Positions 7,282 through 18,491 of a stretch of 20,062 nt of DNA are shown here, piece by piece; position 1 is the first letter of the stretch; each line of letters starts with the position of its first letter. Below the pieces are notes generated by a model that was given only the letters and a program-made list of their open reading frames with translations, ran no database searches and was not told where the DNA came from. The DNA lies in IMG/VR virus record IMGVR_UViG_3300047491_000372, positions 1 through 20,062 of that record; one strand, 5' to 3'. The stretch comes from a virus. The position numbers and the translations under genes were made by a program.

Positions 7282-7289
7282 TATTTATA
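7282..7289 (-). promoter_or_regulatory. T4-type late promoter for gp8
   Basis: The minus strand carries an exact TATAAATA, the T4 late-promoter consensus recognised by the gp55/gp33/gp45 system. It overlaps the last Ile codon and TAA stop of the preceding gene. A start about 6 nt downstream gives a leader of roughly 18 nt with AAGGA at 7266-7270, ending at ATG 7258. This is a textbook position for a late promoter. Confidence 0.8.
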
Positions 7290-10200
7290 TGGTTCCAATG
7301 GTGGTTATGTCAAGATAATCATCATCAGACACATAAAGATCAGCGCCGCTGCTGACACTTACATGCAGATTTACCACACCAGTAGTATCCTGATATCTGA
7401 ATGCTGTTGCTCTGAGATTGTTGATGGCATAGGTATTTTCCGTGCTGCTGACCGTGGTTGATCTTATGATTCTAACACTGACACTGGTTTCAGGACCTGG
7501 ACCGTATACGGTTAGGCTGGTGGTCTGAAACTGATCTGCGGCTCTTAGTACCTTAAAGAACGGAACACCTGCAGTCTGCAGATAACTGCTAACATTTACT
7601 CCAGTGCTGGTTACCCTGTATGCAGTTAGTGCTGAACTGGTATAAATTACGGCCTTGTTTAGGGTTATGCTGGTATCTGAATTGATATTTACCACGGTAT
7701 AACTGGTGTTATCTGGATTGGCTCCATTAAATTTAATAACATTGCCAGTAGATAATTCAGTTGTAAATGCAGTACCAGAACCAACTACACTGGTTGTAGT
7801 GCTGGTTATGTTCATGGTGCCGGTTAGTGTGCTTACAAATGCAATATAACTTAATGTTAACTGTGGTGTTATGTCAATTTCAGTATCACTAACAACGTTG
7901 ACTATGGTATAGGCCGTACCTGTTGTAGTGCCAATACTGATTAGGTTGTCCCGACTTAAAGCTGTAAAATTTGTGCCAATACCCAACAAACGGCTAACTG
8001 AAGTTCCAAAGGTATTTTCCGGCCCCCAGACGCGGCCAACTATGGCCGTGCTGCTTCGTAACGCCTGAGTAGTGGCTGGACTAACACTGATCTGATTGTT
8101 GTTGGTTATGGCTGTAACCGTATAGGCCGTGGTATTATAGTTGTTTAGGAAATATAGTCTATCACCCAGATTTAAATTGGTTGTAAAGTTTGCACCTATG
8201 CCATAGACTGTAGTACTGCTAACACTGGTGAATATCTGACCGGTCAAACTGGTGGATGCGCGTGTCCAGGTGTTGCTGCTACCACCCTGCCAGATATCAC
8301 TGGCTGTAAACCAGCTAATACCACCATTGGTGCTGAATTGCAGTGCAAGATTCTGACCTGTGCCCGGTGTATTACCACCGTTACTAGAATTTCCTACCAG
8401 ATAATCTACGCTTAAATCTAGCTGTCCACATTCGGTAAAACTAGTAGTGGCTACAAAAGGATTAAGTATGCTGCCACCACCATTGAATATAAATGCTCCA
8501 GTATCAAATACAAAGGCTGTGCTGGTGTTGCTGGTAAAACTCGTGGCACTGACACTGGTTGTGGTTGAACTCCAGCTGGCTACCAGTCCGGTGCTGGTTA
8601 TGTTGGTTGTGTTAAAACTTTCGGCCGTGCTGGTAGTGTATTGCTGTTCCTGATCCAGTTCTATGCGCAGAGCCAGTCTATCATAGCTGGCGCCTCTTTG
8701 TCCATTATAGGGTTTGAATCTAAGCATGGCTTCATTGCCTGCAACATAGGCAGCAGAACTAACTGGTGTGCCACTGATCTGAGCCTTATACACTATGCTG
8801 CTGGCATAATTGCTAACAGGACGTGGTGTTATGAGCATGCTGGTGTTGCTATAGATGTTGGTTATGGTATAGCTGGTATCAAAATTGTCCAGACAAATTT
8901 TATCACCCTCTTTGAAGCTTGTATTAAATGTGGTAGCTGTACCAGTTAAGAGGCCTGTGCTGGTGCTGGCTACCACACTTCCAGGTGTCTGTATGGTAAA
9001 CTGTATGCTGTTTGAACTATGAAAATAGATTAGATCATCAAAGGCCAGAGAATTTTTAACAGCTATGTCCTTGTAGTTGCGTTGAGCTTCAGCATCAAAA
9101 TACGGAACAAAAGTAGCATTGGAACTCAGTCTGATGTTTATGACATTGTTTTCTTCACCGCTGGCATTGCCTCGGCTATTTTTAGCAAAGGTTATGAGCA
9201 TGATCATGCTGCCTACACTGGTGCTGTTGATGTTGGCCTCGGGTATTTTATATCTCAGTGTTCCCGAGGTCATGTTTAGCAATACTGTATTAGTGGCTGT
9301 TATGCTGCTGGTAACTAAATATCTGGTAGTAGTTAAACCCGAATTGGTGTCATAGGGCCAGGCTATGAGTTGTTCGTCTAGATCAATGCTACTGCCAAAT
9401 TTATCCCAGCTAGGTCCTTCAAATCTGGTAACCTCTCGGAGATTGCTGCCAGCATAGGTATCCTGCAGACTCTGCAGAGCAAATGTAACGTGCTCACCTG
9501 GATAATCAAAAGTTGTAGCATAGGTTATGTTTCCTATGCTGGTATAGGTCACAGTGGCAAATCCAGTTGTAGTGGCCAGCTGTGTGGTGCTGGTTCCGGT
9601 CTGCAGATCTGCAGTACGATCAAAGGTAAAACTTGGAACCAGTATGAATTCTGTTGTGGTTGGAAACGCAACCGTGGTATCTATGCTTACACTGGTGCCG
9701 AAGGTATTTAAAACGTTGACTGGATTGGTGTTGGCAGTAAATTCATTAAACATCACTGTGCCAGTGGGGTGCAGCTGTTTTAATATGTGATCGGCCCAGA
9801 TCTTACGATCATTTTGGCTGCGCACAACATAGCTAAATTGCTGATAATACAGACTGTCCTGCAACACCTGTTTGTGACTAAGCTGACTCTGACTATCCTT
9901 GTATACACCCTGAGCAGTTGTCAATACTGACATGCTGCTTACTGTTACGGTACTAGTAGTTTCAGCAACATGATCATAAAATATGCCCCGAATACTTTCA
10001 CCGCTGGTAAATGTTCCACGAGGAGCAATGCTGGGTTCAAAAACTAAATCATACACAGTTGAGCCATTCTGTCCAACTACTTTGACCACGTCATTAACTA
10101 CGGCACTGGCTGTGCTGGTCAGGCCAGTCACCCAGGTATGCATTAGATAATCTGGATTGCCAACGTTGGCACGAACTCTGAGTCGTTTTTCAACATACCA

Positions 10201-10596
10201 GAGACCTGCGCTGGTTTTAAACATGTCCTCGCGAGGATATTTAATGGTTATGTCATCGTTAAAGAATGCTTTAAAAAAGAACCTAAAACTTTTTTCATTG
10301 CCTTTGTTTTTAAAACATTCTTTAAAGTATTTGACTAAAATAGTATCATCTACTTCGCTGGTGCTGGGTAAATTTGGCACATAGGTATTTAAAAACTGTA
10401 TGGCCAGATTGTTTGCAGTTGTGTCTATGTCTCGATTAAGTTCAATGTTCTGTATGCTATGCTGTACACCCGAACTGCTGTTGTCCAGATATTCAAAATA
10501 CTTGGTCATGAAGATTACATACAGTGGATAATAATCACTGATGTATTCGGGTATCTGATCGCTCAGTATGTGCGAGAGTTTTCTATTGAGTTCCAT
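7285..10596 (-). CDS. Large virion protein in the gp7 position (baseplate wedge, probable)
   Basis: This 1103-aa protein lies between gp6 and gp8, exactly where T4 has gp7 (1032 aa). I do not see residue-level similarity to T4 gp7, so the assignment rests on position and size. The first 290 residues are unlike the rest: charged, aromatic and partly helical (FEYLDNS at 34-40, VKYFKECFKNKGNEKSFRFF at 88-107, ILKQLHPTGTVMFNEF at 271-286). That resembles the N-terminus of wedge proteins in marine T4-like phages. The remainder is Ser/Thr-rich and beta-dominated. It holds four copies of a GT/F/GD module (about 538-592, 786-840, 863-912 and 926-980) and a lectin-like stretch around 660-780. The start ATG shares its A with the gp6 stop (TAATG), so translation is probably coupled to gp6. 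gp7 in T4 nucleates wedge assembly; a similar role is inferred here. Confidence 0.7.
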   Translation of the reverse strand: MELNRKLSHILSDQIPEYISDYYPLYVIFMTKYFEYLDNSSSGVQHSIQNIELNRDIDTTANNLAIQFLNTYVPNLPSTSEVDDTILVKYFKECFKNKGNEKSFRFFFKAFFNDDITIKYPREDMFKTSAGLWYVEKRLRVRANVGNPDYLMHTWVTGLTSTASAVVNDVVKVVGQNGSTVYDLVFEPSIAPRGTFTSGESIRGIFYDHVAETTSTVTVSSMSVLTTAQGVYKDSQSQLSHKQVLQDSLYYQQFSYVVRSQNDRKIWADHILKQLHPTGTVMFNEFTANTNPVNVLNTFGTSVSIDTTVAFPTTTEFILVPSFTFDRTADLQTGTSTTQLATTTGFATVTYTSIGNITYATTFDYPGEHVTFALQSLQDTYAGSNLREVTRFEGPSWDKFGSSIDLDEQLIAWPYDTNSGLTTTRYLVTSSITATNTVLLNMTSGTLRYKIPEANINSTSVGSMIMLITFAKNSRGNASGEENNVINIRLSSNATFVPYFDAEAQRNYKDIAVKNSLAFDDLIYFHSSNSIQFTIQTPGSVVASTSTGLLTGTATTFNTSFKEGDKICLDNFDTSYTITNIYSNTSMLITPRPVSNYASSIVYKAQISGTPVSSAAYVAGNEAMLRFKPYNGQRGASYDRLALRIELDQEQQYTTSTAESFNTTNITSTGLVASWSSTTTSVSATSFTSNTSTAFVFDTGAFIFNGGGSILNPFVATTSFTECGQLDLSVDYLVGNSSNGGNTPGTGQNLALQFSTNGGISWFTASDIWQGGSSNTWTRASTSLTGQIFTSVSSTTVYGIGANFTTNLNLGDRLYFLNNYNTTAYTVTAITNNNQISVSPATTQALRSSTAIVGRVWGPENTFGTSVSRLLGIGTNFTALSRDNLISIGTTTGTAYTIVNVVSDTEIDITPQLTLSYIAFVSTLTGTMNITSTTTSVVGSGTAFTTELSTGNVIKFNGANPDNTSYTVVNINSDTSITLNKAVIYTSSALTAYRVTSTGVNVSSYLQTAGVPFFKVLRAADQFQTTSLTVYGPGPETSVSVRIIRSTTVSSTENTYAINNLRATAFRYQDTTGVVNLHVSVSSGADLYVSDDDYLDITTIGTI
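7657..8241 (-). repeat. Three consecutive beta modules in the gp7-position protein
   Basis: Residues 786-840, 863-912 and 926-980 each follow the same plan: S-x-x-T-x-V/R-x-G-x-G-T/A-x-F-T, then L-x-x-G/D-D/N-x-I/L, then Y-T-V/I-x-x-I/V-x-S/N-D/N-T/N-x-I-x-V/I/L. Examples are GSGTAFTTELSTGNVIKF and YTVVNINSDTSITL in the last copy. A fourth copy stands apart at 538-592 (about 8821-8985), with TGTATTFNTSFKEGDKI and YTITNIYSNTSMLI. Confidence 0.75.
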
Positions 10597-12866: not shown

Positions 12867-12893
12867 TAGGTGACACATGTATTTTTGATCTTT

Positions 12894-13100
12894 TTATGAA
12901 TTAGGTGGTGGAATTGGGTCACCATTTGCATCAGCTAATGACTGAGTCCAGGTTCCATTTTCATTTTTAACCATGACTGTAATATCAAAAAGGTGTGATT
13001 CTTCTATGATTTCCAAACGACGTTCTTTGATAGCCTCGAATGAGTCGCGTTCTTCTTGTAATCCAGTTACTTGATTGTGTACTAACCATTTTCTATCCAT
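12894..13100 (-). CDS. Hypothetical 68-aa protein next to the adhesin
   Basis: This small protein starts at ATG 13100 behind a strong AAGGAG ribosome site. It is charged and likely alpha/beta: WLVHNQVTG (5-13), a helix SFEAIKERRLEIIEESH (20-36), LFDITVMVKNENGTW (37-51), then a proline-rich tail. The pattern of V-H-N-x-x-T-G, a helix and a strand ending N-G-T-W gives me the impression of small proteins found beside glycine-rich fibre genes in other phages, but I cannot name a family. It lies 11 nt after the adhesin gene, so a role as adhesin partner, chaperone or trimmer is a guess from position only. The preserved ribosome site, coding-like composition and fit into the tight gene row support a real gene. 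Confidence 0.75.
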   Translation of the reverse strand: MDRKWLVHNQVTGLQEERDSFEAIKERRLEIIEESHLFDITVMVKNENGTWTQSLADANGDPIPPPNS

Positions 13101-13107
13101 AGTTTAT

Positions 13108-13113
13108 CTCCTT
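13108..13113 (-). promoter_or_regulatory. Strong ribosome binding site for the 68-aa gene
   Basis: AAGGAG on the minus strand overlaps the TAA stop of the adhesin gene and lies 7 nt before ATG 13100. It is the best Shine-Dalgarno match in the window and indicates that the small gene is initiated strongly in its own right. Confidence 0.75.
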
Positions 13114-14230
13114 AACTTACTGCTCCATAAATTGTACCAGTTGTAACATAAGTTACTGTATAACCATTAAGTTCTATGGCTTTACCACCAGATCCTCCAG
13201 GATTTGACTGCGATGATCCACCAAGAGCTCCCCAACCTCCACCACCCAGGCCTGGTTCGTATGAGTTAGTCAATGGAACACCATCTCCAGCGTTGTTGGC
13301 AGATCCACCAGCTTTTCCATCAGAACTTGAGCCAGCACCACCTCCACCTCCAGCACCACCACCTTTGCCTCTGGCTGCAACTAAACTAGTAAGATTTACT
13401 CCACCAGCTCCACCAACACCAGGTAATATTCTACCACCACCGCCACCACCACCTGTATAACTACCAAAGAAAGAGCGGAATGTTGAAGATCCATCGGTGC
13501 CAGACTGACCAAGAGCTCCACCAACACCACCGGCTACAATACCAGTATCAATTCCACCGCCGCCATCTCCCCCTCCTGCGCCACCGCCAGCACCGCCATA
13601 GAAAGCACCACCAAGTGCTCTTCCACCGCCGCCACCGCCTGCTATGTAGCTATTATTAGTTATAGTAACATTGTAGCCAAGGCTGAGAGCTGTGCCACCA
13701 GCAGTTGGAAGTGCTAGACCTGAACCCGTATTTCCACCTCCTTTGCCTCCTTTACCTATGATGTAACCATTGTTTGTAATAGAGACAGTTGAACCAGTAG
13801 TTAAAGAATTTATGGTTAATGCAGCTATTGATGTTGAATCTGACCAAATGTAGATGCCAGTATCAATGGATATATTTGCAGTAACTGCTGTGGTTCCATC
13901 CCATCCTGCTGCTACTAAAGCACTACTTAAATTAAAGTTTTGTATGTTTGTTGTAATACTTGTTGAAAAGGCAAATGAACCGCCACCACCGCCACCTTCA
14001 CTACCACCGCCACCTTCACTACCACCGCCACCACCGCCACCACCACCGCTAACACTATAGTTATCATAAGTAATTGCCGTAGAAGTGCTCTGTAATTTTA
14101 CAACAAATATATCATCTCCAACTGCACCAAAATTATCAAAATTTATTCTGGCTGGGAGAGTAAAATCTCTATCCCAAAATAAAGCAATCTGATAGGGATT
14201 TATGACTTTTACATAGTATTTAACTGCCAT
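13112..14230 (-). CDS. Glycine-rich adhesin-like tail protein
   Basis: The 372-aa product has three parts. Residues 1-50 (YYVKVINPYQIALFWD and onward) look like the second half of an FCCH-like beta domain whose first half ends the PAAR protein. Residues 62-84 are a polyglycine linker with SEGGGG repeats. Residues 86-372 have a beta part (FNLSSALVAAGWDG, then TVSITNNGYIIGKGG) followed by long glycine runs and end in YVTTGTIYGAVS. The N-N-x-G-x-I-x-G-x-G-G-x-G-G runs and the T-G-T-x-Y-G-A ending are typical of phage tail adhesins. Such runs form polyglycine-II bundles in the gp38 adhesins of T4-like phages. Host-receptor recognition is therefore likely but inferred. The ATG overlaps the PAAR stop by 11 nt in the +1 frame; an AGGA lies 10 nt upstream of it. 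Confidence 0.8.
   Translation of the reverse strand: MAVKYYVKVINPYQIALFWDRDFTLPARINFDNFGAVGDDIFVVKLQSTSTAITYDNYSVSGGGGGGGGGSEGGGGSEGGGGGGSFAFSTSITTNIQNFNLSSALVAAGWDGTTAVTANISIDTGIYIWSDSTSIAALTINSLTTGSTVSITNNGYIIGKGGKGGGNTGSGLALPTAGGTALSLGYNVTITNNSYIAGGGGGGRALGGAFYGGAGGGAGGGDGGGGIDTGIVAGGVGGALGQSGTDGSSTFRSFFGSYTGGGGGGGRILPGVGGAGGVNLTSLVAARGKGGGAGGGGGAGSSSDGKAGGSANNAGDGVPLTNSYEPGLGGGGWGALGGSSQSNPGGSGGKAIELNGYTVTYVTTGTIYGAVS
13979..14047 (-). repeat. Polyglycine-coding tract with two 18-nt direct repeats
   Basis: The tract encodes residues 62-84 of the adhesin. On the plus strand the 18-nt unit CTTCACTACCACCGCCAC occurs twice in tandem (13996-14013 and 14014-14031), giving two SEGGGG units, flanked by further CCA/CCG triplets. 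A repeat that is a multiple of three can expand or contract without breaking the frame, so linker length may vary between strains. Confidence 0.85.
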
Positions 14231-14318
14231 TGGTATCAGATCCTGAATTTTTTAAAATAACCATGTCACCTGTTCCAAAACCATGAGGTTGTTCTGATGT
14301 TAAAACAGGAACCTGAAT
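14051..14318 (-). other. FCCH-like beta domain split over the PAAR and adhesin genes
   Basis: The PAAR protein ends PVLTSEQPHGFGTGDMVILK plus NSGSDTNGS (from residue 237), and the adhesin starts MAVKYYVKVINPYQIALFWD. Joined after the NG, they recreate the pattern of FCCH-like phage domains: P-V-x-T, HG-x-x-x-GD-x-V-x-I-x-x, NG, then Y-x-V-x-V-x-x-x-x-x-x-x-L. The second half lies in the +1 frame relative to the first. The FCCH name is from pattern recall and was not checked by a profile search. Confidence 0.6.
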
Positions 14319-15017
14319 GGCATCTGAAATATTTTCAAGATCTATGCTGGGAAAATTTCCTAGAATAGCTTCTTGCAATGATGGTAACCCCGGTGTTTCC
14401 AAACCAAAATCTGGAATGGATGCTGACACAGTATCAATGGCTACTCCTAATACATCATTTAATCCTATTTTTCCAACACCACCAGTAGGAACCAGAGACG
14501 AAACTTCTAAAACTGATGTAGATAGTATATCCTGTATTTTTTCATTGATTAATTCTGTAACATCTACTCCAGCTATTTCTATAACTTCAGTAAATTCAGG
14601 TAATGCTATGCCTAGTTTATCAAATACATCACCAACTGTGGGAATAGCGGGTAACTCTATACCTAGGCCAGCAGCAAATCCACTGAATATACCACCAAAC
14701 ATAGATACTGCACCCAGGGCGCCCAAAGGAGCACCTATGTTTACATTGGGGCTACCCATGGCTATGAGACTACCACATAGAATACTATCCCCCATGCGAG
14801 CAGCTGGGCGGCCATTTATGAATACATTAGAAGCACCAGATCTAACTATACTGGCATGACACCCATCTAGAGGACAACAATGCACTAACCAAACATCTAA
14901 AACTCTGTGAGCACCCAAACCATTTATTTTTACATCTGTACTAAATGTAACACCTGGTCGAGGCGGCCAACAACCATGTCCTGTACAAAAACATCCTATG
15001 AACGCAGCTGCTGCCAT
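14220..15017 (-). CDS. PAAR-repeat spike-tip protein with long C-terminal extension
   Basis: Residues 1-98 form a PAAR domain: GHGCWPPRP at 13-21, VKING at 29-33, then HCCPLDGCHAS (46-56), VFINGRPAARMGD (65-77), CGSLIAMGSPNVNIG (81-95). The many Cys and His residues (C9, C11, H14, C16, H37, H46, C47, C48, C53, H54, C81) fit the metal site that sharpens the tip of gp5-like and VgrG spikes. T4 has a short PAAR protein, gp5.4 (97 aa), also downstream of gp5. Here about 167 further residues follow: a Gly-rich hydrophobic segment (MFGGIFSGFAAGLGI, 106-120), predicted helices with Ile/Leu/Val spacing, and the first half of an FCCH-like domain (237-265). The start codon overlaps the previous stop as TAATG. 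The stop lies inside the adhesin gene. Confidence 0.9.
   Translation of the reverse strand: MAAAAFIGCFCTGHGCWPPRPGVTFSTDVKINGLGAHRVLDVWLVHCCPLDGCHASIVRSGASNVFINGRPAARMGDSILCGSLIAMGSPNVNIGAPLGALGAVSMFGGIFSGFAAGLGIELPAIPTVGDVFDKLGIALPEFTEVIEIAGVDVTELINEKIQDILSTSVLEVSSLVPTGGVGKIGLNDVLGVAIDTVSASIPDFGLETPGLPSLQEAILGNFPSIDLENISDAIQVPVLTSEQPHGFGTGDMVILKNSGSDTNGS
14248..14257 (-). promoter_or_regulatory. T4-A6 run with an in-frame slippery heptamer near the PAAR 3' end
   Basis: The minus strand reads TTTTAAAAAA. In the PAAR frame this is ATT TTA AAA AAT, so the heptamer T TTA AAA has the X XXY YYZ form of -1 frameshift sites. A -1 shift would end after a few codons at TGA. A +1 shift, or loss of one A, leads into the adhesin frame, which is open from this run onward through its ATG. 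Use of the site is unproven. Confidence 0.4.
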
Positions 15018-15581: not shown

Positions 15582-18491
15582 TTATGCCTGAGCCATGTCT
15601 ACCAGATAATTGGCTACAACCTCACCGTTTACTGTTGTAATAATTTTATCTTCGGCTTCAACATCACGGTTACCTTCTTGTTTATGAACAACAGTAATCC
15701 AGGGCTGACCAGATCCTATGGTACTGTATTCCAATCTAATCTGATCATAGGGTACATTATTTTTAATCCATTGTGCTATGCCAAAATATTCAGTAGCATC
15801 TGCGCCTTTGAATTGAATGTTTGCGGCCTGACCAATATTAAATGGTGTTACAGTATTAAGTTGTTCTGTTACTGCAGCCAGAGCCTGATCACCCAATCCA
15901 CTGGTGACACCTGTAAACAATTTGCTAAGCGGACTGTCTGGATCAGAATCTAATAATTGGGCCGCCACGGGTTTAAATGCATCACTGATTTCCATGTTGG
16001 GAAATTTGTCCATGATTGGATCCAAGGCATTTACTGCCAGGGATTTCAAATTAGTAGCAATTTCATCTATGCCCAGGTTACCCTGTGCAGTAAGGAAGTT
16101 TTGTAAACCAACTTCTTTAACTCGGCTGGACAAATCACCCACATTAAAATGCTTGCTTAGCTGTGAAACTGCTGGTATGTCAGTCCAGTTAACAAATTCA
16201 TTGAGCACTGATTTATTGCCTAGGATTTGATTAGGTATGCTTTGATCAATGTTGGTAATAAGACCATCTGTAAAGGATTGTATTAGATTACGGCCCTGAT
16301 CAATAAGATTGCCAGGTAACAGATCTCCTAGACTACCACCAGTGCCAAATATGTTACCAAATCCTGATCCTGTACCTGATGCAACAAAACCAGCTCCTCC
16401 CAGTAGTGCTGCACCACCACCCAGACTATTTTCACCAGCTGCACTTGGCAGTTTGCCCAAGAATCCTAGAATTCCACCACTGTCCGTGCCACCAACACCA
16501 CCAAAGATACTGGACAGGCCCTTGCCTATGGCATTTTGTGGACTGGCAATTTCGTCTGGTAAAGGAATCAACCCCGTGTCTTCAAATGCACTGGTTGTGG
16601 ATCCATAGATGTCGCTGAGTATGCCATCATCCAGCAGTGTTACCGTAGCTGCAAATGGATTAGCTGTACCAGAATTTAAATTAATATCACTGGCGTCCAT
16701 ATCTAAATCACCAATAACACTGTGTTGTTCATCTCCAGTAACTATATAGTTTAAATCTCCACCTATGCTGTTGTTAAAATAATTACCAGTTGTAATGCTT
16801 AGATCCTGCTGAGCCTCTATGTTGATGTTTTTGGCCTTGACATTGAATGTTCCAGATACATTTAGGTCGGCATCGTTTTTAATGTTTATGGTAGTCTTGC
16901 CCAGCACTTCAACATCCAGAGCATTTTTAACCAGCAGAGTTTTAGCACCATCTACGGTAACATCGTAATTGCCCATGACATACATTCTGTTGTTGCGATT
17001 GTATATTTCATAGTTTTCACCCTTGACCTTGTAGCTGACACTGCCTTCACGATCAATTTCTACATAGGTTCCAGTTCTATGGTAAATATGAATACGTTCA
17101 GCATTGGGGGTATCATCTAGCTCAATGACATGACCACTTTCGGTTTCTTTTACATGATTATATGGATAACGAGCATTGAATGCACTTGCGGGTTCGTCCC
17201 AAGTACCTGAGCTGGCGCCATTGGCCGTGGGTATGCCCTTGCTGCGATTACTATCTTTTTCTTTTAATAGAGTGGTTTGTAAACTGTCGTTGTTAGTGGC
17301 CAACTTGTTGGTGTCGGCTCGAGCCGTATAATCACACTTGGGATAAACACTGTTAGGATCACCAAACGCATCGGGTTGACCTAGTTTGGGATTGTTTAAA
17401 GCCCCAGCCCAGTCTGTTATGTTGTCAAAGATGTTTTTATTACTTTTAATGCTGCCATTGGCTGTATTAGTTCCCGTAGACAACGCAGCGCTGGCATTTA
17501 TGGCTCTGGCACCAACTTCCCACCAGGTTGAAGCTTTGGTTCCTAGACCGTCAGCACCATTTACACCATTTTTTAAATCACGAGCACCTGTCCAGCCCAG
17601 TAGATGAGCCGAGCCTAGATAACCAGCAACCTGATCTGCAGACATCTGAGTATCTATGATGCCTTTGCTTCTTAAGATGCTATAGTTGCTGGCCGTGACA
17701 TCATACATGGCCTTTTCTTGTACGTTGTTTTTATTCTGTTTGAATTCTTCCAGACTGAATACGCCATTTTTGCCAGTCCAGTTACGACTGTCTGCTAGTT
17801 CCTCATTGGTTAGTCTGCGAACCGGTACGGGATTTTTTAAATAGCCCGTGGTCTGCAGAGCCTCGGCTCCTAGCTGATACTTACCAACAAAACCAGACCC
17901 TGTTGTTTGGGTAGCATAATTTTGTGTGGTGCCCGTACTAGAACTTTCTCTAAAGGCTATGGCATCCATGTAGGCCTGAATCTGAGGCTGCGTCAATGGC
18001 GGTAATGTACTTGCAATGCTATTAGAACTAGTAGCTGCACTATCAACGGGCTGTGGATTTTCAGGTAGGGCTATACCATTGGGGTTTAGTACTATTCTAT
18101 TGCTAACATCACGCTGTGAATTTGTAGCATTTGACTCGGCTCTGGCCTGAGCCACACAGGCATTACTGGTATTGGGAATACCGCCAATGGTGCCCATGAT
18201 TATGGGCTGCTGACATTCGGCTCCATCTGCAAAGAATCCCACCACCCAGGTGCCTTCGAGCGGACCCAGCGGAGTATTGCCTTTACCACTGATAGCAGCA
18301 CTAAGTATGGGCTGCATGGGCATGCTCCAGGGTAAAGCATTGGTAGGCAATTCGTTTTTATTGTCGGTATGGTATCCTGTTATGCGCACTCGAACTCGAC
18401 CCAGTTTAAGTGGATCCATGCGATCTTCAACCACACCTACCCACCACCAAAAACCGTCGCGTGCAAATAAATTGTCTATGCTAGTTGTCAT
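15582..18491 (-). CDS. 5: Baseplate central spike, T4 gp5-like, with lysozyme-like and degenerate M15-like domains
   Basis: The 969-aa product is far longer than T4 gp5 (575 aa). Residues 14-105 form the OB-fold that binds gp27 (FWWWVGVVEDRMDPLKLGRV, then GTWVVGFFADG, QPIIMGTIGG). Residues 168-335 look like a lysozyme or transglycosylase domain: DAIAFRESSS with E182 as probable catalytic residue and GFVGKYQLGAEAL at 200-212. I do not see the T4-lysozyme signature, so this may be another fold. Residues 452-606 carry a gp5/VgrG-type beta-helix (HVIELDDTPNAERIHIYHRT, then V-x-G-x-N-Y-x-x-x-x-x repeats such as VMGNYDVTVDG). Residues 650-730 are Gly-rich and hydrophobic, 730-880 mostly helical, and 883-945 resemble the end of an M15 peptidase lacking its ligands. 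The start overlaps the gp27 stop as ATGA. Confidence 0.92.
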   Translation of the reverse strand: MTTSIDNLFARDGFWWWVGVVEDRMDPLKLGRVRVRITGYHTDNKNELPTNALPWSMPMQPILSAAISGKGNTPLGPLEGTWVVGFFADGAECQQPIIMGTIGGIPNTSNACVAQARAESNATNSQRDVSNRIVLNPNGIALPENPQPVDSAATSSNSIASTLPPLTQPQIQAYMDAIAFRESSSTGTTQNYATQTTGSGFVGKYQLGAEALQTTGYLKNPVPVRRLTNEELADSRNWTGKNGVFSLEEFKQNKNNVQEKAMYDVTASNYSILRSKGIIDTQMSADQVAGYLGSAHLLGWTGARDLKNGVNGADGLGTKASTWWEVGARAINASAALSTGTNTANGSIKSNKNIFDNITDWAGALNNPKLGQPDAFGDPNSVYPKCDYTARADTNKLATNNDSLQTTLLKEKDSNRSKGIPTANGASSGTWDEPASAFNARYPYNHVKETESGHVIELDDTPNAERIHIYHRTGTYVEIDREGSVSYKVKGENYEIYNRNNRMYVMGNYDVTVDGAKTLLVKNALDVEVLGKTTINIKNDADLNVSGTFNVKAKNINIEAQQDLSITTGNYFNNSIGGDLNYIVTGDEQHSVIGDLDMDASDINLNSGTANPFAATVTLLDDGILSDIYGSTTSAFEDTGLIPLPDEIASPQNAIGKGLSSIFGGVGGTDSGGILGFLGKLPSAAGENSLGGGAALLGGAGFVASGTGSGFGNIFGTGGSLGDLLPGNLIDQGRNLIQSFTDGLITNIDQSIPNQILGNKSVLNEFVNWTDIPAVSQLSKHFNVGDLSSRVKEVGLQNFLTAQGNLGIDEIATNLKSLAVNALDPIMDKFPNMEISDAFKPVAAQLLDSDPDSPLSKLFTGVTSGLGDQALAAVTEQLNTVTPFNIGQAANIQFKGADATEYFGIAQWIKNNVPYDQIRLEYSTIGSGQPWITVVHKQEGNRDVEAEDKIITTVNGEVVANYLVDMAQA
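15657..15845 (-). other. C-terminal M15 peptidase-like domain without metal ligands
   Basis: Residues 883-945 of the gp5-like protein read PFNIGQAANIQF, then IAQWIKNNVPYDQIRLEY and GSGQPWITVVHK. The M15 pattern in other marine T4-like gp5 proteins, as I recall it, is H-x-x-G-x-A-x-D-I-Q-F, then A-x-W-I-x-x-N-V-x-Y-D-Q-L-x-L-E-Y, then P-W-I-H-V-S-F. Here the His becomes Phe884, the Asp becomes Asn891, and the last His becomes Thr933. The scaffold is kept, but the zinc site is missing. Confidence 0.55.

Follow-up and report, generated by a model that had tools for sequence, protein, structure and literature searches.

An FCCH-like β-domain divided between overlapping PAAR and adhesin genes in a T4-like phage tail gene cluster

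PAAR proteins carry effectors in T6SS and eCIS, and the corresponding tip of phage tails has mostly been viewed as a bare point. Natural fragment complementation, in which strands of one fold are contributed by two chains, is familiar from donor-strand pilins and split inteins. In T4 gp5.4 and the PAAR tips of T6SS and eCIS, cargo is recruited either as an extension of the PAAR protein or by way of the next gene (PMC8651086, PMC7600766), and gp5.4 itself is a single monomer on the gp5 trimer (PMC7600766). The gp38-type adhesins at the tail-fibre tips of phages T2 and PP01 have a Gly-rich domain (PMC12892980). PAAR proteins with cargo, FCCH-like modules in phage proteins, and Gly-rich adhesins are all already known. 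What appears to be new at the locus described here is the division of one such module over two overlapping genes as a candidate spike-tip joint, an arrangement absent from the open-licence literature searched, in which nothing direct appeared on a split PAAR/adhesin pair or on FCCH domains in phage tails.

The window, by which we mean the whole 20,062-nt stretch of viral DNA that was analysed (IMG/VR record IMGVR_UViG_3300047491_000372, positions 1 to 20,062), belongs to a tail gene cluster of T4-like type, encoded on the minus strand. Its genes run, in the order of transcription, through a 448-aa protein, a gp5-like spike, a 187-aa protein, the PAAR protein, the adhesin, a 68-aa protein, gp25 (a name resting on position and relatives), and gp6. 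The gp6-like protein has its nearest phage counterparts, at 33-37% identity, in phages of Methylophilales, Pelagibacter, and cyanobacteria. The PAAR gene thus lies beside the spike gene of a contractile tail, and its cluster includes, besides the gp5-like ORF of 969 aa (15582-18491, minus strand; phrog_430, 3e-89), the gp25- and gp6-like genes. The PAAR domain (residues 1-95; 14733..15017, minus strand), which resembles the T4 gp5.4 spike tip (phrog_281, 7e-29), scores 44.6 bits against the curated PF05488 cut-off of 27. In exceeding the Pfam cut-off and in sitting between the spike (gp5) and gp25 genes, it is like T4 gp5.4; unlike gp5.4 and the T6SS and eCIS PAAR proteins, its cargo is an adhesin, and the extension and the next gene hold half a domain each. 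As for the gp5-like spike protein, we found no Pfam T4 lysozyme match, and its residues 155-356 match another hub/lysozyme family (phrog_27932) and may form a muramidase of another kind.

The initial annotation of this DNA had described a PAAR protein that stops in the middle of a β-domain, the remainder of which opens the next gene, shifted to the +1 frame and overlapping by 11 nt. The reading frames are indeed so arranged: the program-listed PAAR ORF (265 aa) occupies 14220-15017 and the adhesin ORF (372 aa) 13112-14230, both on the minus strand, with the adhesin in the +1 frame relative to PAAR and the overlap (14220..14230) reaching from the PAAR stop codon TAA (14220-14222) to the adhesin ATG (14228-14230). 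One detail needs amending, in that the PAAR stop falls 10 residues past the motif HGFGTGDMVIL (residues 245-255 of 265) and not 14. On the PAAR side, the domain is followed by an extension or linker (residues 96-235; 14313..14732) that is mostly helical in a low-confidence prediction and is missing from the PAAR proteins of relatives without the FCCH module; a structure model of the whole PAAR protein, at a pLDDT of 42, was set aside as unreliable. The first half of the FCCH-like domain then closes the protein (residues 236-265; 14223..14312). The adhesin opens with the second half (residues 1-59; 14054..14230), continues through a Gly/Ser-rich linker (residues 60-86; 13973..14053), and ends in a Gly-rich, gp38-like region (residues 87-372; 13115..13972) that matches phrog_10745 (1e-12) and, weakly, the gp38 adhesin family PF05268 (16.4 bits, below the cut-off of 25). 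Its Gly-rich domain is like that of gp38 from T2 and PP01; unlike gp38, the window adhesin lies 3' of a PAAR gene and is joined by its Gly/Ser linker to half an FCCH-like domain. Residues 87-372 are homologous to the adhesin of the relative L028, discussed below, and to adhesins beside the tail-fibre genes of two podophages, of Limnohabitans and Sphaerotilus. There, the same Gly-rich adhesin type lies directly 3' of a gene in the tail-fibre position (so annotated in one of the two) with a one-base overlap (L075:3908-4744 and L076:3911-4687); this binder has, therefore, been passed between tails of very different kinds.

The case for one domain in two pieces comes from a profile, A7, for which 12 undivided domains were taken from other viral contigs, with sequences of the split lineages excluded. 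The PAAR protein alone scored 14.1 bits against it, covering profile positions 9-39 only (PAAR residues 236-263), and the N-terminus of the adhesin alone scored 15.6 bits, covering positions 42-65 only (residues 4-27). The joined halves reached 38.0 bits (E 7e-11), far above the maxima of 26.2 and 27.5 bits among controls in which one half was shuffled (2 x 200), and the halves in swapped order gave two separate weak pieces only. By hhalign, the joined domain aligned with the intact one at 98.2% (E 3.7e-14), compared with E-values of 2e-7 and 1.4e-5 for the single halves. The two chains, therefore, hold complementary, non-overlapping parts of a domain that is found whole in three relatives (L006, L028, and L029). 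A profile search with the joined sequence had been suggested from the outset; with its outcome, the claim of a single domain shared by the PAAR end and the adhesin start is confirmed at the level of sequence, as one FCCH-like β-domain divided between the two genes.

The name FCCH, also given in the initial annotation, stands as a statement of family resemblance and does not extend to membership by the Pfam threshold. The intact-domain profile, when compared with the PDB, matches the FCCH domain of UBA1 (2lzj, E 6e-9), and the intact domain of L028, as modelled by AlphaFold (pLDDT about 80 in the core, 58 on average), has its best PDB alignments with the FCCH domains of UBA6 and UBA1 (Z 7.2, hence below 8; rmsd 2.4 over 68 residues). 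The Pfam family E1_FCCH (PF16190) matches the joined sequence, and neither of the single halves, at 13.4-14.7 bits, short of its cut-off of 29.5; the intact L006 domain scores 15.9 bits. The strands of the intact L028 model span its residues 12-15, 26-30, 39-45, 50-54, and 75-78, and the split corresponds to the loop between the second and the third (26-30 and 39-45). From this model of an intact homologue, we tentatively infer the fold of the window domain. The intact phage domain is thus like the E1_FCCH domains of UBA1 and UBA6 in sequence profile and possibly, judging by the model, in fold, and unlike them in its apparent use as a tail attachment module, which is here cut into two chains, and in falling below the Pfam cut-off.

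The relatives offer both whole and divided versions of this module. In L028, which comes from a 51-kb contig, the gene after a 138-aa PAAR protein is a 411-aa ORF in which an undivided domain leads, by way of a Gly linker, to an adhesin of the window's type. The alignment begins at residue 5 of the window adhesin and residue 41 of this ORF (48% identical over 200 columns), and the 40 L028 residues that the window adhesin lacks are the counterpart of the half carried by the window PAAR protein. In L006 and L029, PAAR proteins of 143 and 141 aa, respectively, are followed by a whole domain fused to a SUEL lectin (PF02140, 8e-12 in L006), and then by another Gly-rich protein. These fusions of the FCCH-like domain with a galactose/rhamnose-binding SUEL lectin (L006:6432-7130 and L029:4426-5085) show the same mount occupied by another kind of binder. 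The one-ORF version that was to be sought in related phages exists for the domain, which is whole within one ORF in L006, L028, and L029, and was not found for a fusion with the PAAR domain.

The domain is divided as in the window in four further contigs, L002-L005. Their PAAR proteins end in ...HGYGDGDQVILTDSGYDTNGTT (QVVL in L003) and overlap by 14 nt a +1-frame ORF of 61 aa that consists of the second half only, without an adhesin. Protein identity to the window in the split region is about 60%, and blastn finds no DNA match to the split relatives across 12867-14728, outside of which they are 77-87% identical. The split has, therefore, outlived the divergence of the DNA around it. The same segment, 12867-14728, is recognizable as a hypervariable island (its flanks are 77-87% identical to L003-L005), which in relatives contains no insert, the half-domain only, an adhesin, or a lectin. 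Scans with the second half, the joined domain, and the PAAR extension returned the same five split contigs only; a contig scan with the PAAR domain yielded nothing beyond a distant relative. A tblastn search of cultured phages with the joined domain and the window adhesin gave no match, and the split was accordingly found in none of the isolates in that collection. Two split lineages were thus recovered, and these probably go back to a single common origin.

This distribution also bears on whether the split could be an artefact. The initial annotation regarded a single-base sequencing error, namely a missed base that masks a fused gene, as a real alternative, and an A6 run within PAAR (14248..14253), the sole homopolymer near the junction, does adjoin it. 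However, the junction is identical in a separate contig, L001/L013, which departs from the window at 8 other positions in 7,568 bases, and the same split recurs in the four contigs of the diverged lineage, which lack the homopolymer. Sequencing or assembly error is excluded by these independent contigs, and its probability is practically nil.

The A6 run also bears on the second of the two mechanisms proposed at first, a frameshift fusion. In this reading, a programmed +1 frameshift, or transcriptional slippage at the run, would yield small amounts of a PAAR-domain-adhesin fusion in addition to the short PAAR protein. Other phage tail genes with dual products provide a precedent; in the +1 frame, no stop codon interrupts the roughly 10 codons between an upstream TAA and the PAAR stop, and AAA could re-pair after a +1 slip. 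Against this, L002-L005 have no homopolymer at the site (ATATTAACTGATTCAGG) and end in ACC TAG where the window has AGT TAA; both run and stop context differ, so that the two lineages share no shift site of the kind that a programmed frameshift should conserve among relatives. Further, a PAAR-domain fusion in a single ORF is absent from all PAAR contigs that were found, and both split lineages retain an ATG and an AGGA for internal initiation. The Shine-Dalgarno-like AGGA (14241..14244), 10 nt 5' of the adhesin ATG, pairs with the 16S tail at -4.1 kcal/mol, a value comparable to those of other window genes, and its spacing from the ATG is identical in L002-L005. With these start signals kept and a common shift site lacking, separate initiation of two chains is the simpler interpretation. 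Docking of the two products fits the comparative evidence, and we consider frameshifting distinctly unlikely.

Two chains need not meet, and the split might be a decaying accident whose halves are leftovers or serve other partners, with the adhesin mounted at some other site, such as a tail fibre, in the manner of gp38. Phage proteins often contain FCCH-like domains as loose modules, and the homologous Gly-rich adhesins of the two podophages, directly 3' of the tail-fibre gene, have no such domain, which implies that this adhesin type is able to mount without it. However, the halves do not evolve as leftovers would. Between the window and L002, the first half (26 codons) shows a pS of 0.65 and a pN of 0.28, and the second (52 codons) a pS of 0.60 and a pN of 0.24, giving a dN/dS of about 0.23 for each despite strongly diverged synonymous sites, with a significant excess of synonymous change in both (p 0.008 and 9e-5, respectively). 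Purifying selection thus acts on both halves, which are accordingly kept as proteins. In addition, the split point has not drifted between the lineages, and the retention of a lone 61-aa second half in L002-L005 would make little sense without a partner. We therefore regard halves that never meet as rather unlikely.

The size of the PAAR protein bears on where the binder attaches. We found 19 PAAR groups of loci, near-identical contigs having been merged by eye. An FCCH module, whole or split, lies directly downstream in 4 of 4 contig groups with a PAAR protein of 138-265 residues and in 0 of 15 with one of 90-99 residues. The nominal p of 2.6e-4 for this co-occurrence overstates the independence of the groups, which are mutually related; among close relatives only, p is 0.008. 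The association of extended PAAR proteins with the module suggests that the binder is attached at the PAAR extension. An alternative is that the rebuilt domain is structural only and caps the extended PAAR tip, the window adhesin being a passenger and not the main receptor binder. In L002-L005, where the second half is entirely without an adhesin, docking could indeed only complete or cap the domain. Yet at this position L006 and L029 have the undivided domain attached to a binding module (a SUEL lectin), and so does L028 (an adhesin of the window's type); carrying a binder is, therefore, the common state, and a purely capping role is very unlikely.

We accordingly favour, as the probable if far from certain reading, that the two products dock, rebuild the FCCH-like domain, and so mount the adhesin on the spike tip. 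The ancestral state would have been a whole domain serving as the N-terminal attachment module of an adhesin gene after PAAR, as in L028. In the window lineage, the gene boundary would have shifted into the domain, at the loop between strands 2 and 3, so that an extended PAAR protein now ends in strands 1-2 and the adhesin begins with strands 3-5. Each product would be made on its own from the overlapping genes, by coupled translation from the internal AGGA/ATG, and the halves would fold together into one domain, by which a single adhesin would be held on the one PAAR copy at the tip of the central spike. Since T4 gp5.4 is monomeric, each particle would be expected to have a single tip adhesin. 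In the manner of pilins and inteins, fragment complementation is proposed here, from sequence, to link a spike tip to a putative receptor binder. The chances are about even that the two-chain β-domain acts as a snap joint, with one half on the PAAR tip and the other on an exchangeable binder, placing a receptor binder on the point of the needle.

A phage tip protein thus apparently carries a receptor binder by means of a joint made from two halves of one domain. If so, this would give the tail a way to exchange adhesins at the spike tip and provide a natural split-domain pair for the study of gene fission; it would also predict tip-mounted binders in other phages with long PAAR proteins.

Two other ORFs of the window merit mention. 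The 68-aa ORF 3' of the adhesin (12894-13100, minus strand) has no family match and the strongest Shine-Dalgarno pairing among the window genes tested (-9.2 kcal/mol); its position suggests an adhesin assembly helper. Farther along, a 1103-aa protein (7285-10596, minus strand) contains several copies of a β-repeat of the form GTGTxFTTxLxTGDxIxF...YTVxxI.
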